Assembly: GCF_021496665.1 (NCBI RefSeq)
Contig: NZ_CP071246.1
Location: forward strand, 310,001 to 374,000
DNA: 64,000 nt
Reading direction: 5' to 3'
Source of the DNA: Corynebacterium sp. CNCTC7651
GTDB taxonomy: Bacteria > Actinomycetota > Actinomycetes > Mycobacteriales > Mycobacteriaceae
Shown here: piece after piece, positions 39,885 through 56,282 of the stretch
How the letters are laid out: each line of letters begins with the position of its first letter
Position numbering within the stretch: position 1 is the first letter of the stretch
Made by a program: the position numbers and the translations under genes
The notes under the pieces: generated by a model
The model's input: only the letters and a program-made list of their open reading frames with translations
Told to the model about the DNA's origin: nothing
The model's database searches: none

Positions 39885-40799
39885 ATGAGCCTTACCATCG
39901 CTAGCGTCAACGTCAACGGCATCCGCGCCGCCACCAAGATCCGCAGCGAGGACAACCTCGGCATGCTCGCGTGGCTCGCCGGGACCACGGCGGACGTGGT
40001 GCTGATGCAGGAGGTCCGCGCCACCGAGGCCGAGGCCACCGCCGCACTCGCCCCCGCGCTCGAGGCCGGCTGGCACCTCGCCGTCGCCCCCGCCACCGCG
40101 CCCGGGGCCAAGGGCCGCGCCGGGGTGGGCATTCTTTCGCGCACCCCGCTTGCCGACGTCCGCGTGGGCATCCCCACCTTCGAAGACGCCGGCCGTTTCA
40201 TCAGGGCCACACTTCACGACGGTACCGTTGTCGCCTCCCTTTACCTCCCCAGCGGGTCGGCCGGTACGGCGAAACAGGACGAGAAGTACCGCTTCCTGGA
40301 CGAGTTCGAGCCGCTGCTCGCCCAGTGGGCCGAGGAGGAGCCCGACATGGTGATCGGCGGCGACTGGAACATCTGCCACCGCCGCGAAGACTTGAAGAAT
40401 TGGAAGACGAACCACAAAAAATCCGGCTTCCTGCCGCACGAGCGCGCGTTCATGGATGCCGTGTTCGGTTGCTTCCCGGACGAGGAGGCGCAGGATGCAG
40501 AGCTTAAGAACCTGCCGGGTTGGGCTGGTGCGGTCGAGTACGTCTCAAAGAAGCGTCGAGAAGCATGCGCGGACCCTGGATGGTTCGATGTGGCGCGGCG
40601 CTTGAACCCGGAGGACGCGGGGTACACGTGGTGGACGTTCCGCGGGCAGGCGTTCAACAACAACGCGGGCTGGCGCATCGACGTGCAGGCGGCTACGGCC
40701 AACATGCTTGAGCGGGCGCAGCGCGCGTGGGTGGACCGCGTGGCGACTGTGGAAGAGCGCTGGTCAGATCACTCTCCGCTGGTGGTGGAGTACCGGTAG
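39885..40799 (+). CDS. xth: Exodeoxyribonuclease III
   Basis: This 304-aa AP endonuclease/exonuclease of the EEP fold starts [16 protein letters not shown], with QEVRATE (metal Glu), [12 protein letters not shown] (Asp/Asn), [21 protein letters not shown], and the C-terminal [11 protein letters not shown] catalytic His. It acts in base-excision repair. A -10-like TATGGT ends 8 nt before the ATG, so it is probably leaderless. Two truncated copies of its 3' part lie at 55.5 and 56.6 kb, beyond the CRISPR-Cas locus and beyond a toxin-antitoxin module. Confidence 0.94.
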
Positions 40800-40830
40800 C
40801 TCGGAACCTTTTCGGGGGAGGGGGTAGCGC

Positions 40831-40865
40831 TAAAAAGGGGCTGGCCTTGAAAGACTGGCCAGCCC
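40831..40865 (-). terminator. Terminator of the minus-strand mini-CRISPR RNA
   Basis: On the minus strand, GGGCTGGCC and GGCCAGCCC pair over 9 bp around a 10-nt loop and are followed by CTTTTT. It immediately follows the second degenerate repeat. On the plus strand there is no T-tract after the stem, so it does not serve xth. Confidence 0.8.
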
Positions 40866-40940
40866 TGGAACCCCGCTAGCGCGGGGAGGATGAGGATCCC
40901 AGAATGATAGCGGGCTCATCCCCGCGGGCGCGGGGAGCCA
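40864..40940 (-). ncRNA. creR-like: Mini-CRISPR (CreR-like Cas-regulating RNA candidate)
   Basis: Read on the minus strand: degenerate repeat 1 (40940-40913) matches the array repeat at 24 of 28 positions, keeps the hairpin stem, and has an intact 8-nt handle (ATGAGCC plus C). Next comes a 21-nt spacer (40912-40892). Degenerate repeat 2 (40891-40864) keeps the 18-nt hairpin core CTCCCCGCGCTAGCGGGG but has lost both flanks. A terminator follows at once. The guide (GCTATCATTCTGGGA after the handle) matches the plus strand at 41029-41043 before cas3 except at guide positions 6 and 12. This is the architecture of CreR RNAs, which direct the effector to the cas promoter. Expression and start point are not visible; TAAAGT on the minus strand near 40960-40965 is a weak -10 candidate. 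Confidence 0.75.
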
Positions 40941-41025
40941 GCCTGGGATCTCCGGATTGACTTTACAAATCAACCGGTGCCACTGGGTATTCAGGATTTT
41001 TCGGTATCTCTGGCGATAATTCATG

Positions 41026-41043
41026 AACGCTATTATTCTTGGA
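41026..41043 (+). promoter_or_regulatory. Candidate Cascade target in the cas promoter region
   Basis: AAC (41026-41028) would be the PAM and GCTATTATTCTTGGA (41029-41043) the seed-proximal protospacer for the mini-CRISPR guide. The match covers guide positions 1-5, 7-11 and 13-15 and stops after 15. TATTAT (41031-41036), the best -10-like hexamer here, lies inside it; GATAAT at 41015-41020 is another. The cas3 Shine-Dalgarno is at 41059-41070. Confidence 0.7.
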
Positions 41044-41079
41044 GAGTATCGATGAATTGGAGGGAAGGAGTGGTTCAGC

Positions 41080-43890
41080 GTGAACATCCCTGAGCTTCCG
41101 GCCTCTACCCTTGAGTTTGCGTCAGATGCCGAAGGGTGGGTTGCGGCGCGCTCGGCGCAAGCGAGGGCGCTGTGGGCGAAGTCTGGAGATGACTCCGGTC
41201 ATCTTTCTTTACCTCAGCACCTCGTCGACACGGCTTGTGTTGCCGCTGGTGTGTTCGATGTCTGGATTTCCGGCGCTATGGTTCGGTTCCTCTCAGATAG
41301 GCTCCACCTCACTTCTGACGAAGTCAGGTTGTTGTACATCTTCCTGGCAGGGGTTCACGACGTTGGAAAGGCGATCCCTCAATTCCAGCGCCAAATCGAT
41401 CGAGGAGAATATGCGCACATTGTTTCCGGAGTGCGCGACGCAGGTCTTTCGCTCGATGCCGCTAACCGCGAGCAGCAAGAGCAGAAGATTCCGCATGGTG
41501 TCGCCTCGGGGGTGATCCTCTCTGAGTGGCTCGTGGGGCGCGGCATGGCCCGCTCCGTGGCCAGGAGGCTCGCTGCAATCGTGGACGCGCACCACGGAAT
41601 AGCGTCCCAAGAAGAGGCCAGTAGCGCAGCGGCGCACGCAGCAACTATGTATCCGCCGGAGTGGGGCAAGGTTCAAGAAGAGCTTGTCGACGCTATGGCT
41701 CAACTAACTGGGTTTGAATCTGTAGTGAGCCGCATCCGCAGGGTGCGAACCGCGCCCGCGCAAGTCCTCTCCGGGCTTGTTGTGATGGCTGACTGGATCG
41801 CCTCCAACGCGGATGCATTTCCAATGGGCAGTGGCGGATCGCAGGTCGACCGTGCTGTTCGCGGTCTTGCAGCGATCGAACTTACTGGGCCGTTGCGCAC
41901 CAGGGCGGTCGAAGGGGGTGTTGATCAGGTATTTGCAGAATTCTTCGGGTGGGGAAGTGAACGCACGCCGCGCTCTGTGCAACGGGCGGTTGTCGATGCG
42001 GTACGCGAAGTTGATGGCCCTTGCCTGGTGATTGTCGAGGCGGAAACCGGAGTCGGTAAGACAGAAGCGGCTCTTGCTGGTGCGGGACTCATGGTCGCGA
42101 AAAGCGAGGCGCAAGGTGTGTATTTCGCGGCCCCCACAATGGCTACAGCGAATGGGCTGCTGGAGCGCACCCTCGACTGGGCCTCACGGGCTGGGGAGAG
42201 TGGAAGCGTTGCTTCCATGTACCTTGCCCACTCGAAGAACTCCCTGGTTGAGCCGTATCAGTCTCTGCGATTTCAAGGCATTGGGGAGGACCTTGAACAC
42301 GGCAGTGTTGTGGCGAAGGAATGGATGAGCGGGAGGCGAAAAGGCCTGCTTTCCAACATCGTTGTTGGCACCGTCGACCAAGTGCTGATGCTTGCGCTGA
42401 CACAGCGGTACTCGATGCTGCGGCATGCAGCGCTAGCAGGCAAAGTGGTGATTTTCGATGAGGTGCACGCGTACGACGCGTACACCTCGGAGTACCTGCT
42501 GACCACCCTCGAATGGCTGCACTATTACGGCGCAAGCACCATTGTGATGAGCGCAACGCTGCCACCAGACCGCCGCAACGCCATGATCTCTGCCTACACG
42601 GATGCGAGACCAAACGAGGACCCTGGAGTTGCATACCCGCTTGTCACGGTTGCAACTGATGAGCACGTTCGGTTCCATACCCCGGAACCGTCCCCGACCA
42701 CGCTGACAGCCACGATCGAGGTGATCGCGGACGATACTGACACGCTGCGTGCCAGCCTGGAGAACAACTTGGCGGATGGCGGCTGCGCGCTCGTCCTTTG
42801 CAACACGATTGCCCGCGCCCAAGACGCGTATCGGGTCCTCAGCGATGCTTTCCCCGAAGAGGTCACCTTGCATCACGCCGGATTCATGTCCTGGGAGCGA
42901 GTCGAGAGAGAAGATGAGCTGCGCGCTGAGCTAGGTCCAGATGCCCGCAGGGGCGCAGGTCGCCCGCTGCGCAAAGTGGTCGTCGCGACACAGGTCGCTG
43001 AACAGAGCCTCGACATCGACGTGGACGTGCTGTACTCGGACATTGCGCCAATGGACCTTGTTATCCAACGTGCGGGGCGTCTGCACCGCCATCTGCGTCC
43101 TGTCACCGATCGCCCGGGCCAAGTCAGTTCGCCGCGGATCTACATCCGAGGGTTCGTGCAGCGGGAACCTTGCCCGATATTTGATTCCGGTACGGCGGCA
43201 ATCTACGACCCCAAAATCCTTCTCCACACCGCAGCTCTGCTGCCCGATGCGTTTCAGCGCCCTGGCGATATCGCCCCGCTGGTCCACGCAACCTACAGAG
43301 GGAGCGTCGACGTGCCGCCTGCGTGGCTTCCGATCTACGAGGAGGCGAAAGAAGCGTCCAGGTTACGGGAGGAAAGTGCAGCTAGACGGTCCCGCGATTT
43401 CCGAATTGCAGCTCCAGAGGACGCAAAGCATCTCCGCGAGCTTTTCACGCTGACTGATCAGGCCCTCCGGACTCTGGATAAAGGGGAGGAGCGCGGCACC
43501 GCACAGGTTCGCGATGCCGAACCAACGGTCGAGGTCATCCCCATTGAGCTCACGGAATTCGGTTATTTCCCTCTTGGGCAACCGAACGGGGAGGTCCTGT
43601 GGGATGCGGACCCAGAGCCTCGGGTTGCGCGCCACCTTGCGGCGAGCACTGTTCGCCTGCCTGTCCGTATGACGCGTGCACTCGCTGACTTCGAGGCAGT
43701 GGTTGGCCAGCTGGAGGAATCCACGCCGAAAACCTGGGACGGAAATTATCTCCTCCGCGGACAGCTGGCGCTCCCTCTCAACGCCGGTTGGGTAGCGCAG
43801 CTGGGCAGGTTCCAGGTGAGGTATTCGTCAGAGCTCGGACTCGAAATTTTGAGCGACAACACCTCTCGTGCTGTCGGAGGCGGCGGATAG
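41080..43890 (+). CDS. cas3: CRISPR-associated helicase/nuclease Cas3 (type I-E)
   Basis: This 936-aa protein joins an N-terminal HD nuclease (His93-Asp94 in HDVGKAIPQFQ; DAHHGIAS) to a superfamily 2 helicase. The helicase has Walker A ETGVGKTEAA (Lys327), DEVH-box at about 460 (FDEVHAYDAYTSEYL), SATLPP and motif VI QRAGRLHRH, plus a C-terminal accessory domain. It is recruited by Cascade to degrade target DNA. Start GTG has Shine-Dalgarno GGAGGGAAGGAG 9 nt upstream. It is the first gene of the cas operon and lies just past the mini-CRISPR and its target site. Confidence 0.95.
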   Translation: MNIPELPASTLEFASDAEGWVAARSAQARALWAKSGDDSGHLSLPQHLVDTACVAAGVFDVWISGAMVRFLSDRLHLTSDEVRLLYIFLAGVHDVGKAIPQFQRQIDRGEYAHIVSGVRDAGLSLDAANREQQEQKIPHGVASGVILSEWLVGRGMARSVARRLAAIVDAHHGIASQEEASSAAAHAATMYPPEWGKVQEELVDAMAQLTGFESVVSRIRRVRTAPAQVLSGLVVMADWIASNADAFPMGSGGSQVDRAVRGLAAIELTGPLRTRAVEGGVDQVFAEFFGWGSERTPRSVQRAVVDAVREVDGPCLVIVEAETGVGKTEAALAGAGLMVAKSEAQGVYFAAPTMATANGLLERTLDWASRAGESGSVASMYLAHSKNSLVEPYQSLRFQGIGEDLEHGSVVAKEWMSGRRKGLLSNIVVGTVDQVLMLALTQRYSMLRHAALAGKVVIFDEVHAYDAYTSEYLLTTLEWLHYYGASTIVMSATLPPDRRNAMISAYTDARPNEDPGVAYPLVTVATDEHVRFHTPEPSPTTLTATIEVIADDTDTLRASLENNLADGGCALVLCNTIARAQDAYRVLSDAFPEEVTLHHAGFMSWERVEREDELRAELGPDARRGAGRPLRKVVVATQVAEQSLDIDVDVLYSDIAPMDLVIQRAGRLHRHLRPVTDRPGQVSSPRIYIRGFVQREPCPIFDSGTAAIYDPKILLHTAALLPDAFQRPGDIAPLVHATYRGSVDVPPAWLPIYEEAKEASRLREESAARRSRDFRIAAPEDAKHLRELFTLTDQALRTLDKGEERGTAQVRDAEPTVEVIPIELTEFGYFPLGQPNGEVLWDADPEPRVARHLAASTVRLPVRMTRALADFEAVVGQLEESTPKTWDGNYLLRGQLALPLNAGWVAQLGRFQVRYSSELGLEILSDNTSRAVGGGG

Positions 43891-43929: not shown

Positions 43930-45594
43930 ATGACATTCAACTTGGTTGACCACGAATGGGTAGCGTGCCACGTCAATGGCGAGAAACGGATTGCGAGCTT
44001 GCGCGAGCTGTTCGACGGATCGACTCACGCGACGGCGGTTATGGGTGATTCGCCGACGCAGGACTACGCGGTACTGCGAGTGCTCCTTGCGGTGTTTTGG
44101 AGGGCTCATCATGCTGAGCTCGCTGAAACTCTGACATCGAAACGCGCCCGCGATGACTTTGAGTGGGAAGAATGGTTCGTGGATACGCGAACCGCGCTGC
44201 TTGCCACTGGGAGGGACGAAGCGGTCCTCAGCTACCTGGATACGCACTACGACAGGTTTGATCTGCTTGACTCGGAACAACCATTCATGCAGGTAGGAGA
44301 TCTAGTTGCATGCAACGGGACGACGCAATCGGTTTCTCGCATAGTTCCAGAGGCGGAGCACGATTACTTCACTATGCGTACCGGCGATGGACGCGAAGCG
44401 CTCGGTCTCGCTGAGGCGGCTCGGTGGCTTATTCACTGTCAGGCCTACGACTATTCCGGCATCAAGACGGGTGCTGTCGGTGACCCTCGCGTCAAGGGCG
44501 GAAAAGGCTACCCGATCGGAACCGGCTGGAGCGGGATGACGGGCGGTACCGTCATCGTGGGCTCTACGTTGCTGGAGACACTCATTCTCAACACCACGGC
44601 CTCTTCGGTGTTGGAGGACAGCTTGCCCGTGTGGGAGCGAGACCAAGACACTGCGGCCCCGCGTCTGGTCTCGCCCAGCGGCGCTGCGGAATTTGCTACC
44701 TGGCAGGCCCGACGGATCCGTCTTTATGAAGAAAACGGTCTGGTAACGAAGGTTCTTGTGAGCAACGGGGATGGAATCCCGGATGCTGGCCTTAACGCTT
44801 TCGGCGACCCGATGACTCCGTACCGATACAGCCCGAACAAGTCAAAAAAGGGGAAGCCGGCCTTCTACCCGCGTCCGCACGATATGCGGCAGACAATGTG
44901 GCGCTCGCTCGACCCCTTGATCGCCGTGGACAAGGATGCCCAGTACGACGGGGCCGAGACTGCGCCGAAGCGTCCCGAGACGCTTACGAACCTCGCGGAG
45001 ATTGCAGCCGAAACCGGCCAGGATGACGTCTTCGATGTCGCACTTGTGTCCATGGAATACGGGGCCCAGTCGTCTTCCGTTGCAGTCACGATGAGTGCAA
45101 GTATTGGCCTTCCGCTCGTGGTATTGCGAGGGGATGCCCTAGGTGCTGAGATGCGCCGCGACGTGCGCAACGCTGCGGCCGCCGCTGCAGCGGCCAGATA
45201 TTCCCTCGGTCGCTTCGCTGGTCAGCTCTTGCAGGCGGCGGGCGGTGAGTATGCCTTTAGCCAAGAGCCCGCAGACAGACTTTTCGCTGAGTTGGAGCCG
45301 CAGTTCGTTGCGTGGCTCCGTGGAGTGACGGCGGAAAACATAGAGGAGAAATCAGTCGACTGGCAACGTACGGTCCGCCAGGTGGTGCTCGAAACAGCTC
45401 ACGAACTGATCGTCGGTGCAGGTCCGAGAGCACTCATCGGACGTCTGGAGGGGGCGGGACAGGACGGGGGAGACGGACGAATCCTCAATGCCGGCACCGC
45501 TGAGCGTCAGCTGCGTCGACGTTTGGATAAGGACCTCCCGTTGAGCGTGCAGAAAGACTCCGTCACCCAAAGCGAGAAAGGAATGAACGAATGA
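43930..45594 (+). CDS. cse1: Cascade large subunit Cse1/Cas8e
   Basis: This 554-aa protein is the PAM-recognising large subunit of the type I-E effector. It opens with FNLVDHEWVACHVNG and contains the family segments GDSPTQDYAVLRVLLAVF, KGGKGYPIGTGWSGMTGGT and a helical C-terminal domain. Shine-Dalgarno AAAGGAG precedes the ATG. The 3' end overlaps cse2 by 4 nt. Confidence 0.93.
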   Translation: MTFNLVDHEWVACHVNGEKRIASLRELFDGSTHATAVMGDSPTQDYAVLRVLLAVFWRAHHAELAETLTSKRARDDFEWEEWFVDTRTALLATGRDEAVLSYLDTHYDRFDLLDSEQPFMQVGDLVACNGTTQSVSRIVPEAEHDYFTMRTGDGREALGLAEAARWLIHCQAYDYSGIKTGAVGDPRVKGGKGYPIGTGWSGMTGGTVIVGSTLLETLILNTTASSVLEDSLPVWERDQDTAAPRLVSPSGAAEFATWQARRIRLYEENGLVTKVLVSNGDGIPDAGLNAFGDPMTPYRYSPNKSKKGKPAFYPRPHDMRQTMWRSLDPLIAVDKDAQYDGAETAPKRPETLTNLAEIAAETGQDDVFDVALVSMEYGAQSSSVAVTMSASIGLPLVVLRGDALGAEMRRDVRNAAAAAAAARYSLGRFAGQLLQAAGGEYAFSQEPADRLFAELEPQFVAWLRGVTAENIEEKSVDWQRTVRQVVLETAHELIVGAGPRALIGRLEGAGQDGGDGRILNAGTAERQLRRRLDKDLPLSVQKDSVTQSEKGMNE

Positions 45595-46247
45595 CACAAC
45601 CATCAGTGCCACCGAGCGGTGCACCGTTGTGCAAGAGCGTTGCTCGAACTGCCGACAAGCTGCAGCGCGACTACCTAGACAACCCGTATGGGCGTGATGC
45701 CGCGGATGCTCGGGCGGCGCTAGCAGAACTCCGTAAGGCATCGGCGTTAGAACCTGCGAAAAACCCCATGGGGTTGCAGAAAATCATCGGCATGCTGAAC
45801 CCGCCGCTCAACGAGGATTTCATGGGCCATGACGATCGTCTATCAGCGTCGGAAGTTGCGCTCTACCGATCGCTCTCGCTCTTTGGGGTGCATATGCAGA
45901 GCGCCAAGAAGCCGATGCATACGAGTGAAGTCTCGTTCGCTCAGGCTTGTGGTCAGCTTATGCCCCGAACTGAATCGAAATCTTTCAAGCACCGTTTCGA
46001 CGCACTTCAGCTGGCGACGGACGATGCTTCTCGCGCAGTCCACTTGCGCTCACTCGTCTCGCTTCTGCGGAACTACGAGCTGGCATTTGATTACGGACGG
46101 TTCTCCGAGGACCTGCGCGCGCTGGCGAACCCGAACCGAAAGCCGGGAGTGCTCCTTCGTTGGGGCCGCGACTTTGCTCGAGGTGCACGCCAGCTTCAAG
46201 ACGCACCGCCCCCAGAAGACGTCGACACCACCACCAACACGAACTAG
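45591..46247 (+). CDS. cse2: Cascade small subunit Cse2/Cas11e
   Basis: This 218-aa helical protein fits Cse2, the small dimer subunit that stabilises the R-loop. It has SVARTADKLQRDYL, YRSLSLFGVHMQS and LRNYELAFDYGRFSEDL segments. ATGA overlap with cse1. Confidence 0.9.
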   Translation: MTQPSVPPSGAPLCKSVARTADKLQRDYLDNPYGRDAADARAALAELRKASALEPAKNPMGLQKIIGMLNPPLNEDFMGHDDRLSASEVALYRSLSLFGVHMQSAKKPMHTSEVSFAQACGQLMPRTESKSFKHRFDALQLATDDASRAVHLRSLVSLLRNYELAFDYGRFSEDLRALANPNRKPGVLLRWGRDFARGARQLQDAPPPEDVDTTTNTN

Positions 46248-46277
46248 CCACCCGCCTTTTTTTGAAAGGAACACACC

Positions 46278-47426
46278 ATGACCCTCACCATCGATATCCA
46301 CGCCCTGCAGACCGTGCCCCCGTCACTGATCAACCGCGATGACACTGGCTCGCCGAAGTCCGCGATCTACGGTGGCACCCCGCGCCAGCGCGTCTCCTCG
46401 CAGGCATGGAAGCGGGCGATTCGCAGCTACTACCGTGAGAACTTTGAAACTGAAGCAATCGGTGCGCGGTCGAAGCGCCTTCCCGAAAAGATCACGAAAC
46501 AGCTCGCTAAGGCAACCGGCTGGGATGAGGTAACCGCACTGCAGCGCGTCCGCGAGCTGTTTGCCGCAGCAAAGATCGGGCTTGTGGAAGAAAAGAAGCC
46601 GAAGAAAAAGGCCGAGGCTGAGTCCCAGAACGAGAACACAGAAACCAAGTACCCCGAAACCGGGTACCTATTCTTCTTCAGTCAGCAGCAGATTGATCGC
46701 GCCGTAGCCACGCTTGCTGCCCTGGAGGAGGGGGAGAAGGTGGATAAGAACACCGCGAAAGAGATTCTTAACTCCGACGCTTCTGTGGATATGGCAATGT
46801 TCGGCCGGATGGTCGCAGATGACGCATCGTTCAACATCGACGCTGCCGTTCAGGTTGCACACGCCATTGGCGTTCACACGAGCGCACCGGAATTCGACTA
46901 CTTCACTGCCGTCGACGACCTTGCGGCCGACGGACATGAAACTGGCGCAGGCATGATTGGCACCACCCAGATGATGTCGTCCACCCTCTACCGATACGCA
47001 ACCGTCAACGTTGAGGGTCTCGCGAAGAACCTCGGATCGACCGAGGCCGCGCATGAAGCAGCGTCCCGCTTCATCGAAGCGTTTGCCTGCTCGATGCCGA
47101 CCGGCAAAATCAACACCTTCGCAAACCAGACGGTGCCGGAGCTGCTCTACGTCACGGTCCGTGATACCCGTCCAATCTCCCTCGTTACCGCGTTTGAGCA
47201 CGCGGTGGAAGCGAAAGACGGGGCTGGCCGCCGCGAGGTTGCCACTCGCCGCCTCGCGGAGGAGGCTACCAACGTGCGCGAGGCATACGGTTTCCAGCCG
47301 CTAGCGTCGTACGTAGTCGGTCTCGGAACGTCCGCCGATGCCTTTAAGGGGATAGCGGATCGCGTCACGCTTCCGGAACTCGCTGAAAAGATCCGTGCTG
47401 ATCTGGCTGCAGCAGAGGCGAAGTAA
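46278..47426 (+). CDS. cas7e: Cascade backbone subunit Cas7e
   Basis: This 382-aa RAMP protein forms the hexameric crRNA-binding backbone. The start motif TLTIDIHALQTVPPSLINRD, GGTPRQRVSSQAWKRAIR and DYFTAVDDL match the Cse4/CasC family. It has Shine-Dalgarno AAAGGAAC. Stop and the next start overlap as TAATG. Confidence 0.94.
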   Translation: MTLTIDIHALQTVPPSLINRDDTGSPKSAIYGGTPRQRVSSQAWKRAIRSYYRENFETEAIGARSKRLPEKITKQLAKATGWDEVTALQRVRELFAAAKIGLVEEKKPKKKAEAESQNENTETKYPETGYLFFFSQQQIDRAVATLAALEEGEKVDKNTAKEILNSDASVDMAMFGRMVADDASFNIDAAVQVAHAIGVHTSAPEFDYFTAVDDLAADGHETGAGMIGTTQMMSSTLYRYATVNVEGLAKNLGSTEAAHEAASRFIEAFACSMPTGKINTFANQTVPELLYVTVRDTRPISLVTAFEHAVEAKDGAGRREVATRRLAEEATNVREAYGFQPLASYVVGLGTSADAFKGIADRVTLPELAEKIRADLAAAEAK

Positions 47427-48139
47427 TGGCTCACTCTCTGTTACTACTCCTCAAGGGGCCAATGCAGTCGTGGGGCGACGAATCGAGGTTCAAAGTCCGC
47501 GCAACCGCTCCCACCCCCTCCAAATCCGGCATTGTCGGCTTACTCGCCGCAGCCGAGGGCAGGCGTCGCAGTGATCCCGTCGAAGACCTGGCGGCGCTGA
47601 CCCTCGCGGTCCGGGTAGACCAATCCGGGAGCCTCCTGCGTGACTATCAAACAGCGCAGGACTGGATCAGAAAGCCCGGCAGTTCTGCATCCCTGGTCAC
47701 GCGGTACTACCTGGCAGATGCCGCGTTTGTCGCCGCTGTGGAATCCGAGCACCGGGAGGTCGTCGAAGGCCTTGAATCCGCGCTTCGGCAGCCCGCCTAC
47801 CCGCTGTTCATGGGCCGTCGGTCGTGTCCCGTGCACCCCGGCTTGGTGCTGGGAATCGTTGATAAGCCTGCAGAAGAGGCGCTCCATGAGCACAAATCGT
47901 GGCATGCTACCACGGCACACAAGTCCCGGTCGCCCCGCCAAGTGCGCCTCCCGATCTACCGGGATGCGCTGCCTGGAGAAAGCGGTGGGGTGGCAAGGCA
48001 GGATGTCCCGCTTTCGTTCGACCCCCGCCACCGCCAGTACGGGTGGCGCAACGTAATCCAGTCGAGCTACGTCGACATGAATAATCCCGACGGCGCAGAA
48101 GCGTCGGATCCCTTCTTTGATGCGGTGGTGTGGGCATGA
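47426..48139 (+). CDS. cas5e: Cascade subunit Cas5e
   Basis: This 237-aa RAMP protein caps the 5' handle of crRNA. Motifs: LLLLLKGPMQSWGDESRF, TAPTPSKSGIVGLLAAAEGR and the GRRSCPVHPGLVLGI loop. One-base overlap with cas7e and 4-nt overlap with cas6e. Confidence 0.93.
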   Translation: MAHSLLLLLKGPMQSWGDESRFKVRATAPTPSKSGIVGLLAAAEGRRRSDPVEDLAALTLAVRVDQSGSLLRDYQTAQDWIRKPGSSASLVTRYYLADAAFVAAVESEHREVVEGLESALRQPAYPLFMGRRSCPVHPGLVLGIVDKPAEEALHEHKSWHATTAHKSRSPRQVRLPIYRDALPGESGGVARQDVPLSFDPRHRQYGWRNVIQSSYVDMNNPDGAEASDPFFDAVVWA

Positions 48140-48822
48140 CAACGATGACCAGGGTTCTCATTAATCCAAAGCGGCGCGGTGGAGCTCGTTTGCTTTCCGA
48201 CGCTCAGTCGATGCACGCCGCAGTTCGCAGCGCGTTTCCCCCGGACATAGACGAGACGGACTCCCGGGTGCTATGGCGAGTGGATCCGCATGAGCATCAC
48301 AGTGTGCTTTACATCGTGGGGCCTGAAGTTCCCACTGTGGACCACATTGTCGATCAGGCAGGGTGGCCGGAACGGCCGGGAGAGACAGCAAACTACGATC
48401 GCCTTCTTGGCAGCTTGATGAAAGGCCAACGGTGGCACTTCGAACTTGTGGCGAACCCTACATATTCCGTCTTTGAAAAGGGAAAGCGCGGGAAGGTGAA
48501 AGCGCATGTGTCTCCGGTGCACCAACTCGATTGGTTGTACAAGAAGGCTCCGGGGTGCGGGTTCGCTCTCGCCCAGCGCGACGCGACTGACGCGCTGGGT
48601 GCTGTCCCCCAGATCACCGAGCGGTGGACTGACGTGTTCCATCGCGATAGGGCTGCTGGTGCACGCAAACAACCCGTGCGCGTGGCCAAGGCACGTTTCT
48701 CTGGGACGCTCCAAGTTTCAGATGCAGCGCTGCTGCGGACGAGTCTCCAGCAAGGGATTGGCCGCGCGAAAGGGTACGGCTGTGGATTGCTGACGCTTGC
48801 ACCGTTGGGCCAGATTCAGTGA
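48136..48822 (+). CDS. cas6e: crRNA endoribonuclease Cas6e
   Basis: This 228-aa protein cuts the repeat hairpin to make crRNA. It has the double ferredoxin-like fold signatures including LINPKRRGGARLLSDAQSMH with a candidate catalytic His, and the glycine-rich C-terminal LLRTSLQQGIGRAKGYGCGL. The start ATG overlaps the cas5e stop; a GTG two codons earlier is possible. The array hairpin and both mini-CRISPR hairpins should be its substrates. Confidence 0.93.
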   Translation: MTTMTRVLINPKRRGGARLLSDAQSMHAAVRSAFPPDIDETDSRVLWRVDPHEHHSVLYIVGPEVPTVDHIVDQAGWPERPGETANYDRLLGSLMKGQRWHFELVANPTYSVFEKGKRGKVKAHVSPVHQLDWLYKKAPGCGFALAQRDATDALGAVPQITERWTDVFHRDRAAGARKQPVRVAKARFSGTLQVSDAALLRTSLQQGIGRAKGYGCGLLTLAPLGQIQ

Positions 48823-49757
48823 GCACCCCCAGTGAAGTTCCCATCACGCGCCTCGCTCTCTCGCGTTTAGAGAACCGGATCTCATTTCTCTACGTCGAGA
48901 GAGCAACAGTGAATCGGGACGGTAATGCACTTACGATTACCGACGACAGAGGCATCGCTCACGTTCCCGCAACCGCCCTGGCAGCGCTTCTCCTCGGGCC
49001 AGGCACACGGGCTACCTATGCGGCGATGGCATTGCTGGGAGATGCTGGGACGAGCGTTGTGTGGGTCGGGGAGCGCGGTGTGCGCTTCTACGCGCAGGGC
49101 CGTCCGCCTGCGAAGTCATCGCGATGCGCGGAAAAGCAGGCGGAGATAGTGACACACCAGAGAAAGCGTCTGGATTGTGCCAAGCGGATGTACTCCCTGC
49201 GTTTTCCCGGTGAGGACCTCGAAGGTCTTTCGATGTCGCAGCTCCGCAGCCGGGAGGGCGCGCGGATGAAGCGCATTTACGCAGCTGAAGCGCAACGAAC
49301 CGGAGTTTATTGGGATCGAAGAAGCTATGACCCGAATGACTTCGAATCTTCGAATCCGATTAATCAAGCACTAACTGCAGCGAGCGCTGCGCTGTACGGG
49401 GTAGCGCATGCTGTTGTTGCGGGCCTCGGATTCGTACCCGCGCTTGGGGTAGTGCACACCGGAACTGATCGTTCGTTTGTGTACGACATTGCAGACCTCT
49501 ACAAGGCTGAGATTGCGATTCCCGCGGCATTTGACGCCGTCGCTGCAAATTGTGGCCAACCCTCAGTTGAAGTCAGGCGGTTAGTTCGCGACTTGGTCGT
49601 GAGCACGCGTCTCATGCCTCGAATGGTGAAAGACATCAAGTACGTAATGGACGTGGACGACGAGGTCTTGCCATCCGATGCCGAACTCTTCCTTTGGAGC
49701 GAGCTCGAGCTGATTGCAGCCGGAGTTAACTGGTCTGAAAAGGAGCTCAAGCAGTGA
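48819..49757 (+). CDS. cas1: CRISPR integrase Cas1 (type I-E)
   Basis: This 312-aa metal-dependent nuclease/integrase has RISFLYVERATVNRDGNALT at the start, the helical domain with NPINQALTAASAALYGVAHA (catalytic Glu/His region), GFVPALGVVHTGTDRSFVYDIADL and the KAEIAIPAAFD segment. GTG start overlaps the cas6e stop. With Cas2 it inserts new spacers at the leader end. Confidence 0.95.
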   Translation: MSTPSEVPITRLALSRLENRISFLYVERATVNRDGNALTITDDRGIAHVPATALAALLLGPGTRATYAAMALLGDAGTSVVWVGERGVRFYAQGRPPAKSSRCAEKQAEIVTHQRKRLDCAKRMYSLRFPGEDLEGLSMSQLRSREGARMKRIYAAEAQRTGVYWDRRSYDPNDFESSNPINQALTAASAALYGVAHAVVAGLGFVPALGVVHTGTDRSFVYDIADLYKAEIAIPAAFDAVAANCGQPSVEVRRLVRDLVVSTRLMPRMVKDIKYVMDVDDEVLPSDAELFLWSELELIAAGVNWSEKELKQ

Positions 49758-50122
49758 TTGTCCTCGTTGTCACTGCTTGCCCAGCCGGATTGCGAGGTGA
49801 TTTAACTAAGTGGCTCCTTGAGGTTACCCCTGGTGTCTTCGTTGGAACCCCGAGCGCGCGAATTCGCGATCTTCTTTGGGATCGCACAGTAGCGCTGTGT
49901 AAAGACGGGCGTGCGCTACTGGTGTACTCCTCCAATTCGGAGCAAGGGATGGAGTTTCGGACCCATCGACACAGCTGGGTGCCCACCGATTTCGACGGGA
50001 TTACGCTGATGATGCGAAAGCACCCGCCCTCGGAAGCGAAACGCAGGAAGGGTTGGAGCAAGGCAAGGCGTCAACGCGCAGCGTACGACGCTCATTGGGG
50101 ACCTCAAGGCGACAAGTTGTGA
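49754..50122 (+). CDS. cas2: Cas2 (type I-E)
   Basis: This 122-aa protein has the I-E Cas2 start MIVLVVTACPAGLRGDLTKWL and the VYSSNSEQGMEFRTHRHSW segment. It is somewhat longer than many because of a basic C-terminal tail (RRKGWSKARRQRAAYDAHWG). GTG start overlaps cas1. Last gene of the cas operon; the array leader follows directly. Confidence 0.93.
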   Translation: MIVLVVTACPAGLRGDLTKWLLEVTPGVFVGTPSARIRDLLWDRTVALCKDGRALLVYSSNSEQGMEFRTHRHSWVPTDFDGITLMMRKHPPSEAKRRKGWSKARRQRAAYDAHWGPQGDKL

Positions 50123-50210: not shown

Positions 50211-53200
50211 GTGCTCCCCGCGCTAGCGGGGATGAGCCCATCGGGCGAAAGCACCAAGGTCAGGAGGTAAAGTGCTCCCCGCGCTAGCGGGGATGAGCCC
50301 GATACGGTGCAGCCCGACAAGGGGCGTGTGTCGTGCTCCCCGCGCTAGCGGGGATGAGCCCCGCAAGGTCTCCACCATCAAACCGTCCGAGGTGTGCTCC
50401 CCGCGCTAGCGGGGATGAGCCGTGGTGTACTCGCGGAGGCGGGCGTGGGAGAATGTGCTCCCCGCGCTAGCGGGGATGAGCCGTCGTAGATCGCCTGCTT
50501 CGAGGTCTGCGCACGGTGCTCCCCGCGCTAGCGGGGATGAGCCCCCACAATGCGCACGTTGCCACCACCAGTGATTGTGCTCCCCGCGCTAGCGGGGATG
50601 AGCCCACGGGGGTGTCCACCATTGTGGTGTCGGTGGAGTGCTCCCCGCGCTAGCGGGGATGAGCCACTAGCCCCCGCATTTCATTCTGACCGCGCTTCGT
50701 GTGCTCCCTGCGCTAGCGGGGATGAGCCGATCGGCGGGCAAGAGGCCACCCTCTACCCGGGCGTGCTCCCCGCGCTAGCGGGGATGAGCCCCCGCCAAGC
50801 CGAAACCGCGCCCGTGCGTGAACGTGCTCCCCGCGCTAGCGGGGATGAGCCCGCCTTACCCTGCTGCGAGCGCTTAAGCTCCTTGTGCTCCCCGCGCTAG
50901 CGGGGATGAGCCCCGTGAGCGTGTCGTGGCCATAGGCAGAAGTAAGTGCTCCCCGCGCTAGCGGGGATGAGCCCACCATCCCCGTCCTCACACACGAAGG
51001 AGAATCGTGCTCCCCGCGCTAGCGGGGATGAGCCCTCGTTCCAGCGGAAGCGGTCGTACTCCAGCGAGTGCTCCCCGCGCTAGCGGGGATGAGCCCTACC
51101 ACCCAACAGCGGGGGGGGGGGGCTTAGTTCAGTGCTCCCCGCGCTAGCGGGGATGAGCCAGGTTGCGTTGGAGGTTGCGGAGAATCTGCGTGGTGCTCCC
51201 CGCGCTAGCGGGGATGAGCCTAGGAGCGCGAGCTCACCCGCCGTCGCGATACGGTGCTCCCCGCGCTAGCGGGGATGAGCCCAGGGCCTCTCCCGAGACG
51301 CGTGCGGAGGCCTCGTGCTCCCCGCGCTAGCGGGGATGAGCCTCGTGCAACGCGGCGGGCCGCGCGTGGCGGTGCGTGCTCCCCGCGCTAGCGGGGATGA
51401 GCCGCTATCTTCCGCTACGGCGGCACCAATGATGGTGTGCTCCCCGCGCTAGCGGGGATGAGCCCTCGTTCCAACGGAAGCGGTCGTACTCGAGCGAGTG
51501 CTCCCCGCGCTAGCGGGGATGAGCCGGTGTTCACCTACACGCCTGTGGAGCAGGTGAAGTGCTCCCCGCGCTAGCGGGGATGAGCCCTTAATACCTGTAA
51601 GGCCGATAAGGCAGCACAGGTGCTCCCCGCGCTAGCGGGGATGAGCCGGGCATGGGTATTGAAACCTCTGGCCTATCAAAGTGCTCCCCACGCTAGCGGG
51701 GATGAGCCCAGCGGTCACAGGGGACCTCCTTGGTTCAGGCCGTGCTCCCCGCGCTAGCGGGGATGAGCCCCCGTCCGGCAGCGTCACCATCCACCTCCAC
51801 ACGTGCTCCCCGCGCTAGCGGGGATGAGCCCGTGACGAACGGGGTGCCGCCGAGCCGCGAGCTGTGCTCCCCGCGCTAGCGGGGATGAGCCCCCGTCCGG
51901 CAGCGTCACCATCCACCTCCACACGTGCTCCCCGCGCTAGCGGGGATGAGCCCGTGACGAACGGGGTGCCGCCGAGCCGCGAGCTGTGCTCCCCGCGCTA
52001 GCGGGGATGAGCCCACGCGCACGGTCACGACGGAGGGGCAGCGGGAGTGCTCCCCGCGCTAGCGGGGATGAGCCCACCCTGCCCATCAGCCGGAAACTTG
52101 CTGCCATGTGCTCCCCGCGCTAGCGGGGATGAGCCCGTCGACAACCCGTGGTCCGCGCTTGCGTTCGTGTGCTCCCCGCGCTAGCGGGGATGAGCCCGCG
52201 CTTGCACAAACACCCGCACCGGGGAGGTCGTGCTCCCCGCGCTAGCGGGGATGAGCCCTTGAGGAACTTCGCTTCACCCATGAGCTCCGCGTGCTCCCCG
52301 CGCTAGCGGGGATGAGCCTGTGCACGTTGCCACCACCAGTGATGCCGTGTTGTGCTCCCCGCGCTAGCGGGGATGAGCCTTGGGGGCGCGACGTGCTGAA
52401 ACCGCCGGAGAAGTGCTCCCCGCGCTAGCGGGGATGAGCCGATCGCTTCACGGTCGCGGTCCTCGTTCTCGGCGTGCTCCCCGCGCTAGCGGGGATGAGC
52501 CCGCAACGGACGCAGGCGGAGACGGCGAAAACGCGTGCTCCCCGCGCTAGCGGGGATGAGCCGGACGCGCCGGGACGCGGGTCTGCGGGGCTGCGGTGCT
52601 CCCCGCGCTAGCGGGGATGAGCCCCCGAACACGTTGGTGAAGCGGTACGAGGACGGGTGCTCCCCGCGCTAGCGGGGATGAGCCCGCGGCAACGTGTTTG
52701 AAGCTGAACGATTCGCGGTGCTCCCCGCGCTAGCGGGGATGAGCCCGGTAAACGGTCGCCGGAGTCGCTGAAGGGCGAGTGCTCCCCGCGCTAGCGGGGA
52801 TGAGCCGGGCAACTTTGAGCAGGGCGAGTACGAGTTCCTGTGCTCCCCGCGCTAGCGGGGATGAGCCCCCGCAGCTGCTGACTCCGACTTCGCAGCCGCC
52901 GTGCTCCCCGCGCTAGCGGGGATGAGCCCGGGTTGTTAGCCATTTGGTGCTACTCCTTGCTGTGCTCCCCGCGCTAGCGGGGATGAGCCCGGGGTGCCGC
53001 CGAGCCTCGAGGAACGGTGTGCGTGCTCCCCGCGCTAGCGGGGATGAGCCGATCGAGGACTAACCCACAATGCAGTACATCGAGTGCTCCCCGCGCTAGC
53101 GGGGATGAGCCCTGCCGCGCCGTGCTGCGCTGCCGCAGATTGAGGTGCTCCCCGCGCTAGCGGGGATGAGCCTCTGTCGCGCCCACTGCTTACGAGCTTC

Positions 53201-55491
53201 AGCGCGTGCTCCCCGCGCTAGCGGGGATGAGCCCAGACCCGTATCCACCAGCTAGAAGCAGAATTGGTGCTCCCCGCGCTAGCGGGGATGAGCCTCCGCT
53301 TGCCTGCGTAGTTGATAGCCATGCCCTGTGCTCCCCGCGCTAGCGGGGATGAGCCCAGATCGACGAGCACGGTCTTGCCCTGCTCCGGAGTGCTCCCCGC
53401 GCTAGCGGGGATGAGCCGGTTATGTCGATATTGAAGGCTTTAACGTCAACGTGCTCCCCGCGCTAGCGGGGATGAGCCCAGGAGCGTCGCCCGGCCACCA
53501 CAGGTCGACCTGTGCTCCCCGCGCTAGCGGGGATGAGCCCACGAACGAGTGGCGGCAGACCAATGCCGATGAGTGCTCCCCGCGCTAGCGGGGATGAGCC
53601 CACGGGGTGGCCGCCCGCCGCGCTACTTCCCCAGTGCTCCCCGCGCTAGCGGGGATGAGCCGGCCGGAGCCTGTCGGGGCCACGACGATTGGTGGTGCTC
53701 CCCGCGCTAGCGGGGATGAGCCGAGGCGGCGGCGGGCAGCGCTGCCTCTGCGAGAGTGCTCCCCGCGCTAGCGGGGATGAGCCCCGCAACGGCCACCACG
53801 TCAGCCTTGCCGGTCAGTGCTCCCCGCGCTAGCGGGGATGAGCCCCAATACGGCACCAACGCCAACTCCATGACGTGGTACTCCCCGCGCTAGCGGGGAT
53901 GAGCCCCGGAGATTGCCCGCGACATGATTGCCGCGAAGGTGCTCCCCGCGCTAGCGGGGATGAGCCCTCCGCGAACTCTCCCACCGTCAAATAACGTTCG
54001 TGCTCCCCGCGCTAGCGGGGATGAGCCCCGTTGCAGGAACACATGCCGGAAGAATTCGAGGTGCTCCCCGCGCTAGCGGGGATGAGCCCCCGCGTTGGAC
54101 CACCCCGCTGATCATGTGGGCGTGCTCCCCGCGCTAGCGGGGATGAGCCCCGGCGCAGAAGGCTATTGAGGAACTGGGCCTGGTGCTCCCCGCGCTAGCG
54201 GGGATGAGCCGGCGCAAGACGTTTAGCCTCCGCCAAGCACAGGGTGCTCCCCGCGCTAGCGGGGATGAGCCCCTCAACCCCATCAATCCGGCCCAAGACA
54301 CTATGTGCTCCCCGCGCTAGCGGGGATGAGCCGTTCCGGCGCGAGAGGAATCGTGCGGCGACTACGTGCTCCCCGCGCTAGCGGGGATGAGCCCCCGAAG
54401 ATGTTCAGCTCATGCAGATCACCGACGTGCTCCCCGCGCTAGCGGGGATGAGCCGGTGACGTGGTGGATCTCCGGGCGGGTGGAGGTGTGCTCCCCGCGC
54501 TAGCGGGGATGAGCCCGCACTGCTGGTCTCGCTCGGCGTGACCGGCTCGTGCTCCCCGCGCTAGCGGGGATGAGCCCGAGAAGTTCGGCTACATGGCGAA
54601 TGCGATCATGTGCTCCCCGCGCTAGCGGGGATGAGCCCCCCATCGACCCCAGCCCCTACTGGGACGGCACGTGCTCCCCGCGCTAGCGGGGATGAGCCAG
54701 CGCATTACCGGGGCCAATGACCTGCCACACGTGCTCCCCGCGCTAGCGGGGATGAACCCTCGTCGACGGTGCGGTTCTTCTCGGATTGGCTGTGCTCCCC
54801 GCGCTAGCGGGGATGAGCCGCTTGATCACGGTGTCTGCGCTGAGCTCATTCTGTGCTCCCCGCGCTAGCGGGGATGAGCCGGCTTCGAGGAGCTTGCGCT
54901 GCTCCCAGGTTTGGTGCTCCCCGCGCTAGCGGGGATGAGCCCCTCCACCACAGGTGCCCCAAAATCCGTCACCCGTGCTCCCCGCGCTAGCGGGGATGAG
55001 CCCGAGTCTTGACGGTACCCACCAATCGCCTCAATGTGCTCCCCGCGCTAGCGGGGATGAGCCCTGGCGACCGTCGCCAAGCACCAGCCCCGAAACGTGC
55101 TCCCCGCGCTAGCGGGGATGAGCCCTCCCGCACCACCCGGTCGGAGTGCACAGACACGTGCTCCCCGCGCTAGCGGGGATGAGCCCCCGAAGACGGTCAC
55201 CCTCTCCGACGGCCGCACCGTGCTCCCCGCGCTAGCGGGGATGAGCCCAAGCCGGGTACGTTCCCGTCTGCCTGGTCGCAGTGCTCCCCGCGCTAGCGGG
55301 GATGAGCCCTCCCGCCAACCGAAACGTCACGGAGGGGTGAAGCGCTCCCCGCGCTAGCGGGGATGAGCCCGAGCACGGTCTTGCCCTGCTCCGGACGGTC
55401 TGGTGCTCCCCGCGCTAGCGGGGATGAGCCGAACGGGCCAAGCGCCACCACGTAGGCGCGGTGGTGCTCCCCGCGCTAGCGGGGATGAGCC
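50211..55491 (+). CRISPR. Type I-E CRISPR array, about 87 repeats
   Basis: 28-bp repeats begin GTGCTCCCCGCG, hold a stem CCCCGC-GCTA-GCGGGG and end ATGAGCC. The period is 61 bp in nearly all units (33-bp spacers), with a few of 62-64; the count from first to last start gives 87 repeats and 86 spacers. Most repeats are identical. Variants occur at 50701 (CCCTGCG), 51681 (CCCCACG), 53878 (GTACTCC), 54731 (GATGAACC) and 55342 (GCGCTCC). The base after the repeat is C in about two thirds of units. A 122-bp two-spacer unit is tandemly duplicated (51742-51863 and 51864-51985). Several spacer pairs overlap in sequence. The repeat resembles that of E. coli I-E and reads in the same direction as the cas genes. 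Confidence 0.98.
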
Positions 55492-55524: not shown

Positions 55525-55869
55525 TGTGTCCGCCGTGAGGATCTGAAAAACTGGAAGACGAACCACAAGAAGTCCGGCTTCCTGCCGCACGAGCGCGCGT
55601 TCATGGATGCCGTGTTCGGCTGCTACCCAGACGACGTGGCGCAAGATGCAGAGCTTAAGGATCTACCGGGTTCGGCTGGTGCGGTGGATTACGTTTCCGG
55701 GAAGCGTCGAAAAGCATGCGAAGCCCCGGCCTGTTTCGATGTCGCGCGGCGGCTGAACCCGGAGGACGCGAACTTGCTCGAGCGGGCGCAGCGGGCGTGG
55801 GTGGACAAGGTGCCGTCGGTGGAAGAGCGCTGGTCAGACCACTCGCCGCTGGTGGTGGAGTACCGCTAG
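55525..55869 (+). pseudogene. Truncated xth 3' fragment A
   Basis: This frame aligns with residues 164-304 of xth ([19 protein letters not shown] region) at high identity but starts mid-protein. It has lost about 27 residues ([12 protein letters not shown] through VQAATA) that include the active-site asparagine/aspartate region. The C-terminus [14 protein letters not shown] and stop codon are intact. It sits 34 bp after the last CRISPR repeat, in the same orientation as xth. Confidence 0.9.
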
Positions 55870-56282
55870 CTCTGCCCCGGGGCGAGAGCTGTGAGACCTG
55901 CGCTCTTCGCGGCCTCCTGAAGACGGCGATCGTAGGTGACAATCGCGCTAGCGCCGCCGAGGAGGGCCGCGGTTAAGTGCAGTGCGTCGAGGGACCTCAG
56001 CGTCGCGCCGGGCAATTGCCCCGCTAGGCGAAACGCCGCTTGGGTCAACGTGACCAACTCGATCGACTGGAGAAAGTCTGAGATCTCGCTCTGCGCAATC
56101 TCCGGATGCCGGACGGCAACACGGCGCAGTTCAGTCTCGAGCAACGTCGAGGAAAAGATTTGTGGAGAGCTCTCTAGAATCGCCTGCTCCAAGGCATCCG
56201 ATTCGGCCTCATCCGCGAAGAACTTAAGGGCAGCCGAGGTATCCAGGTACCAGCGGTGGACAGGCTCAAATACGCTCGTCAC
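55866..56282 (-). CDS. VapC-type PIN-domain toxin
   Basis: This 138-aa PIN ribonuclease has YLDTSAALKFFADEAES with the first Asp, TELRR (Glu), LRSLDALHLTAAL and TYDRRLQEAA. The GTG start at 56282 lies inside the antitoxin gene (17-nt overlap), typical of coupled pairs. Longer frames upstream are out-of-frame reading of the antitoxin. Its stop overlaps the stop of xth fragment A via CTAG. Confidence 0.85.
   Translation of the reverse strand: MTSVFEPVHRWYLDTSAALKFFADEAESDALEQAILESSPQIFSSTLLETELRRVAVRHPEIAQSEISDFLQSIELVTLTQAAFRLAGQLPGATLRSLDALHLTAALLGGASAIVTYDRRLQEAAKSAGLTALAPGQS

Follow-up and report, generated by a model that had tools for sequence, protein, structure and literature searches.

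The type I-E CRISPR (clustered regularly interspaced short palindromic repeats) locus of Corynebacterium sp. CNCTC7651 carries, on the strand opposite to its cas genes, a mini-CRISPR element that very probably encodes a CreR, a CRISPR RNA (crRNA)-like guide RNA that is partly complementary to the cas promoter region of its own system. The window analyzed here, the whole stretch of 64,000 nucleotides (nt) at positions 310,001 to 374,000 of contig NZ_CP071246.1, comes from a genome of 2.45 Mb in one contig. Its type I-E operon is complete and runs on the plus strand from cas3 (41080–43890; TIGR01587 and TIGR01596 above cut-off, 91% identity to cas3 of Corynebacterium stercoris) through cse1, cse2, cas7, cas5, cas6e, cas1, and cas2 (43930–50122), with every protein matched above cut-off by a type I-E NCBIfam or a Cas3 model. 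The main array, also on the plus strand (50211–55491), has 87 repeats of 28 nt, 82 of which are identical (GTGCTCCCCGCGCTAGCGGGGATGAGCC), at a period of 61 nt and with 37 nt from guide start to the next hairpin.

Anatomy of the Element and Its Target

The mini-CRISPR lies between xth and cas3 (minus strand, 40832–40940) and consists of two degenerate copies of the I-E array repeat, a short guide, and a terminator. Read on the minus strand, the first repeat (TGGCTCCCCGCGCCCGCGGGGATGAGCC, plus-strand positions 40913–40940) keeps both the hairpin, contained together with the 5′ part of the repeat in CCCCGCGCCCGCGGGG (40920–40940), and the ATGAGCC handle, which with one further C makes up the 5′ handle ATGAGCCC (40912–40919). 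The guide, GCTATCATTCTGGGA, runs downward from 40911, and the segment that begins with GCTATCATTCTGGGATC extends for 25 nt to the second hairpin (40887–40911). This hairpin, CCCCGCGCTAGCGGGG, is the same as that of the array and is followed by TTCCAGG, with no handle (second repeat, 40871–40886). A first-pass annotation of this DNA had proposed two degenerate minus-strand repeats with one intact handle and two Cas6e hairpins, and each of these parts is found in place; the short spacer that it described is also present, although its length is 20 or 21 nt depending on definition rather than simply 21 nt. The intrinsic terminator that it had placed after the element (40832–40865) comprises a 9-bp stem (40838–40846 with 40857–40865) and a T-run (40832–40836), with a predicted fold of −20.2 kcal/mol (z −4.4). 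A consensus terminator scan did not report it; the predicted loop of 10 nt exceeds the limit of 8 set in that scan.

An ordinary CRISPR array, with a guide of ~32–33 nt between intact repeats, is ruled out by the missing handle of the second repeat and by the distance to the next hairpin (25 nt vs. 37 nt). Rfam returned two matches for the element, both below the gathering score, and thus assigns it to no known RNA family. In the leader, positions 40943–40950 carry GAUCCCAG, which is complementary to the guide tail CUGGGAUC and is identical in the relative L119. When 15 nt of leader are included, the predicted RNA fold pairs GAUCCCAG with CUGGGAUC and both repeat hairpins form; when those 15 nt are left out, the two repeat hairpins are predicted to pair with each other.

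The guide matches a plus-strand site upstream of cas3 (41029–41043) at 13 of 15 positions, with mismatches only at positions 6 and 12, as the first-pass annotation had it, and 36 bp separate this target from the cas3 start. At positions 1–5 and 7–11 the agreement is 10/10, and the match exceeds chance since no guide of another species scores above 8 in this region. AAC (41026–41028, plus strand) adjoins the target on its 5′ side and is a putative protospacer-adjacent motif (PAM) that the first-pass annotation had not pointed out.

A partial second copy of xth lies 3′ of the main array (40379–40802 vs. 55530–55872, 85–88% identity). The CRISPR locus is therefore flanked by xth and an xth fragment, a possible trace of how it arrived.

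Guide–Target Pairs across Corynebacterium

Elements of this kind are widespread in the genus. Among 242 Corynebacterium genomes, 93 have cas3, and we used 91 of the upstream regions, leaving out two where the match lacked the cas3 N-terminus. A rule blind to the target (handle ATG[AT]NCC, with a GC-rich hairpin 21–39 nt after guide start, outside arrays) found elements in 67 of the 91 regions; 66 remain after removal of L172, where the hit is the end of an array. The hits of the rule are denser near cas3 (1.65 per kb) than farther upstream (0.31 per kb). In 14 of the 66, an array-type repeat follows on the same strand within 260 nt, placing the element at the leader side of an array; the window differs from these in that its array lies behind cas2 and its mini-CRISPR has its own terminator. 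A complement of the handle upstream of repeat 1, searched for in all 66 elements, is present in only 3.

Guides match sites near their own cas3 far more often than chance allows. We scored positions 1–5 and 7–11 over a region that begins 450 bp upstream of cas3 and ends 60 bp inside it, with the PAM motif unused in scoring. Own guides reached a score of 10 in 43 elements, 9 in 15, 8 in 4, and 7 in 4; scores of 9–10 were thus obtained for 58/66 own guides vs. 112/4108 swapped guides (binomial P = 8e-82, a value that ignores the kinship of the loci), and this comparison rules out a chance match. The adjoining motif was AAC at 50 of the 62 own sites scoring at least 8, AAT at 7, AAG at 3, AAA at 1, and TTT at 1, so that AA-N accompanies 61/62 own sites vs. 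65/1124 swapped sites. Near cas3, guides match an AA-N site in 61 of the 66 elements. The other five (L184, L189, L190, L194, and L195, the last being the TTT case at its cas3-upstream site) match an AA-N site in the 72–104-bp gap behind cas3, with 10/10 in four and 9/10 in one, where the downstream gene is called cse1 by length and place only and some stretches hold weaker 9-scoring sites elsewhere. Each of the 66 elements therefore has a site in a cas control region, one of them (L167) weakly. The first-pass annotation had named loss of the guide–promoter match in relatives that keep the repeats as the outcome that would speak against it, and no such loss is seen. The five species with a target behind cas3 all belong to a more distant cas3 lineage, and in them control seems to have moved to the Cascade genes.

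As in Escherichia coli, the base that follows the conserved part of the repeat in a type I-E array derives from the PAM. Among the 86 spacers of the window's array, 58 have C at this place, and across 22 stretches (the window and 21 loci, one of these without countable units) the 1199 units show C 706 times and G 338 times, while the second base is nearly evenly distributed. This excess thus supports the C of AAC, the AA being read from the targets only. Comparison of the array with known phages gave no protospacer that confirms the PAM. In the distant cas3 lineage array spacers start mostly with G (123/229, loci L210, L211, L213, and L214), yet its 15 CreR targets have AAC in 11 cases, AAT in 4, and AAG in none; perhaps a weaker motif is kept at CreR targets to avoid cleavage.

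Outside Corynebacterium, 41 genomes of other genera of the order have a cas3 match, and of 20 fetched, 14 gave candidates in a looser and less blind search that admitted an element only together with a target and an A two bases ahead of that target. Five were judged convincing by handle, hairpin, and motif (L232, L236, L240, L245, and L247), all with AAC and three with targets behind cas3. We regard guide–target pairs in these genera as a lead only.

Pairing Pattern and Covariation

The 60 guide–target pairs, with 39 nonredundant guides, share a characteristic pattern of agreement. Cascade leaves every sixth base, such as positions 12 and 18, unread. Matches number 58–60 at positions 1–5, 20 at position 6, 57–60 at positions 7–10, 53 at 11, and 14 at 12, followed by 53 at 13, 43 at 14, 34 at 15, 30 at 16, 15 at 17, 9 at 18, and 12 at 19. 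Positions 6 and 12 are thus near chance and pairing is low after 16, although the long guides match in 12/22 cases at position 21 and in 11/22 at position 30. Scoring that omits positions 6 and 12 could bias such a profile. A rerun in which positions 1–12 were weighted equally and later ones served only as tie-breakers left the chosen site unchanged in 63 of 66 elements (60 with AA-N), which rules out this bias. A tolerated mismatch at seed position 6 is reported for E. coli (PMC4288178), and the profile as a whole is what would be expected if Cascade binding with a short R-loop had shaped these sites.

Guides and targets covary, as the first-pass annotation had suggested checking in related loci. 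Pairing the 60 loci by the first 300 bp of cas3 gave 24 pairs with 12 loci unpaired, and four pairs with unrelated guides were set aside. Across the remaining 20 pairs, 45 seed positions changed: at 34 both sides changed and pairing is retained, at 4 the change is confined to the guide and at another 4 to the target, and at 3 both sides changed without being paired in both. Five distant pairs (matches shorter than 150 bp) supply 18 of the 34 co-changes, and the 15 close pairs show 16 co-changes, 3 guide-only changes, and 4 target-only changes. For example, L144 and L148 are 99.7% alike over 300 bp of cas3, their guides differ at positions 2 and 5, and their targets differ likewise.

Guide Length

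Guide segments fall into two length classes. Measured from the start of the guide to the second hairpin, they span 24–26 nt in 44 of the 66 elements and 36–38 nt in 22, with none between even though the rule allowed 21–39 nt, and both classes occur in both cas3 lineages (2 of 15 elements are long in the distant one). One Cas7 segment covers 6 nt, so the 12-nt difference between the classes equals two such segments. In type I-F, the crRNA sets the size of the Cas7-type backbone (PMC6828817). We tentatively propose, at somewhat less than even odds, that Corynebacterium CreRs are length-quantized, being either 36–38 nt or about two 6-nt segments shorter; that Cascade assembled on the short form would be smaller by two Cas7 subunits, a repression-only complex unable to license Cas3; and that control may have shifted between the cas3 promoter and a Cascade-gene promoter.

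Discussion

Our results suggest, with a probability of roughly 0.93, that the element encodes a CreR and that the Cascade–CreR complex blocks transcription of its own cas operon. The sequence features agree with this reading: a handle and Cas6 hairpin outside the array, a partial and PAM-adjoining match to the promoter region of the cas operon, compensating changes, and, in the window, no coupling to a toxin gene. The proposal of a CreR-type autorepressor in a corynebacterial I-E system, first made for this locus in the first-pass annotation, thus gains support from anatomy, AA-N-adjoining matches, covariation, and a precedent in print for type I-E.

In the mechanism we propose, a crRNA-like RNA would be read from the minus strand and cut by Cas6e at the two hairpins to ~49 nt (an 8-nt handle, 25 nt, and a 16-nt hairpin), compared with 61 nt for an array crRNA. 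Once bound by the Cascade of the same cell, this RNA would direct it to AAC and ~13–15 positions just upstream of cas3, and the short R-loop formed there would keep the cas operon from being transcribed without licensing Cas3. Immune crRNAs would compete for Cascade, such that cas expression may rise when crRNAs are abundant or Cascade is inhibited; a competition model of CreR control has been described (PMC12737573, section 3.2). In the type I-B system of Haloarcula, an 11-bp seed match represses, and spacers of at most 24 bp repress without interference or primed adaptation, although against a virus a 24-bp spacer did prime very weakly (PMC10989794). In type I-F1, truncated R-loops fail to trigger Cas2/3, and I-E is called less restricted (PMC7296934). 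By analogy, a match of such length should bind and repress without cleavage; because of that difference between the types, we only infer the absence of cleavage in I-E.

Several observations weigh against the CreR reading. Twenty-five of the 91 cas3 loci have no element by our rule (L165, which has an element with a variant handle, is among them), so a I-E locus can evidently do without one. Scans of 16–18 kb at four of these loci (L215–L218) gave no candidate judged convincing, and the same scan recovered the elements at three loci that have one (L219–L221); the remaining element-less loci were searched within 600 bp. Only 13 of 66 elements are followed within 90 nt by a TTTTT run, so a window-type terminator is not a general feature. 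Swapped guides reach 10/10 in 8 of 4108 trials, and the L167 pair is weak (8/10). The flanks of element and target are also fairly conserved in L119, the closest relative (74/85 bp between element and PAM, 29/36 bp between target and cas3). Finally, a consensus search found no sigma-70-like promoter on either strand of 40750–41120, and the best promoter-like sites are scattered across the 60 loci.

This last point bears on the possibility that Cascade–CreR activates the cas promoter or fine-tunes it, as it might if its binding displaced a silencer. The distance from target to cas3 match varies from 16 to 324 bp across loci and the consensus searches place no promoter, which would leave room for such a role, but the CreRs described so far repress, and we consider this role very unlikely. 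We hold it highly improbable that the element belongs to a CreTA module, in which the guide would silence a small toxin gene located between target and cas3 and the cell would thereby be addicted to Cascade. CreA elements do share this anatomy (PMC8501985 and PMC9458426), yet in the window, where this was checked, only 36 bp lie between target and cas3, and the targets in the gap behind cas3 in five species are unsuited to a single toxin gene; by this test the window and these five species lack the toxin RNA gene behind the target that a CreTA module would have. It is scarcely credible, too, that the element is the decayed remnant of an old array whose match upstream of cas3 arose by chance or as an old self-targeting accident. 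It has only two repeats and these are degenerate, as decay would predict, but decay does not account for the finding that all 66 elements have a match (weak in one), for the AA-N motif, or for the co-changes, nor for an element whose hairpin, guide, and repeat 1 are identical in L119 over 69/69 bp, compared with 74/85 and 29/36 bp around it. In the same relative, PAM and target agree at 17/18 bp and the terminator region (40831–40871) keeps 37/41 positions. Antisense pairing of the RNA with cas mRNA, which the orientation of the guide would allow in 6 near-cas3 elements and 3 of the 5 gap elements, is effectively ruled out, because in 52 elements including that of the window guide and cas3 mRNA share one sense so that no pairing is possible, and because both the AA-N motif and the lack of constraint at positions 6 and 12 are features of Cascade.

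The CreR reading also has precedents. In type II-A CRISPR-Cas9, tracr-L is a natural short-match guide RNA with which the effector represses its own operon; there both effector and RNA are different and no mini-CRISPR is involved. CreRs autorepress in types I-B, I-E, and V-A by partial complementarity to the promoter (PMC13131331, citing Liu et al. 2023, Cell Host Microbe, doi 10.1016/j.chom.2023.08.005). The CreR kind is therefore already in print for type I-E, and the window's element resembles it in being crRNA-like and partly complementary to its own cas promoter region. It differs from CreRs as two reviews describe them in that 44 of 66 guide segments in Corynebacterium are 11–13 nt shorter than the window's array unit and five guides target the gap behind cas3. 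CreA of CreTA (PMC8501985, PMC10989794) likewise has two degenerate repeats around a guide and an ~11-bp seed match, but CreA targets a toxin gene and the window's element a cas control region. In the open-licence literature we found no paper treating CreR in Corynebacterium, and none with genus-wide covariation, two classes of guide length, or retargeting to the cas3–cse1 gap; in PMC9458426, a term search gave nothing on spacer length, I-E, or Corynebacterium.

The phage search with the array also brought up mini-arrays of another sort. It matched 12 Corynebacterium phage records, at one place each (a mini-array in the two inspected), and one Saccharomonospora record. The two inspected, the Samwavirus phages Stiles (MK977710.1, L251, ~2001–2180) and StAB (MK937613.1, L252, same place) of Corynebacterium xerosis, carry an unannotated mini-array in which two spacers, each approximately full-length, accompany three repeat hairpins of I-E type and a hairpin resembling a terminator, and the records of SamW, Troy, Lederberg, Dina, and Bran match the array near the same coordinate. 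No targets of the phage mini-arrays were found in Stiles or StAB themselves, nor by exact patterns in the 242 Corynebacterium genomes, and against the fetched loci their guides gave only sites that match at 9/10 positions and have AA.

If the CreR reading is correct, cas expression in many Corynebacterium species would be set by the balance between one guide RNA and the immune crRNAs. The 60 guide–target pairs would then amount to a natural experiment on Cascade as a repressor, in which positions 1–5, 7–11, and in part 13–16 are kept while 6 and 12 are free, and the natural short guides may serve as models for gene repression with native I-E systems.
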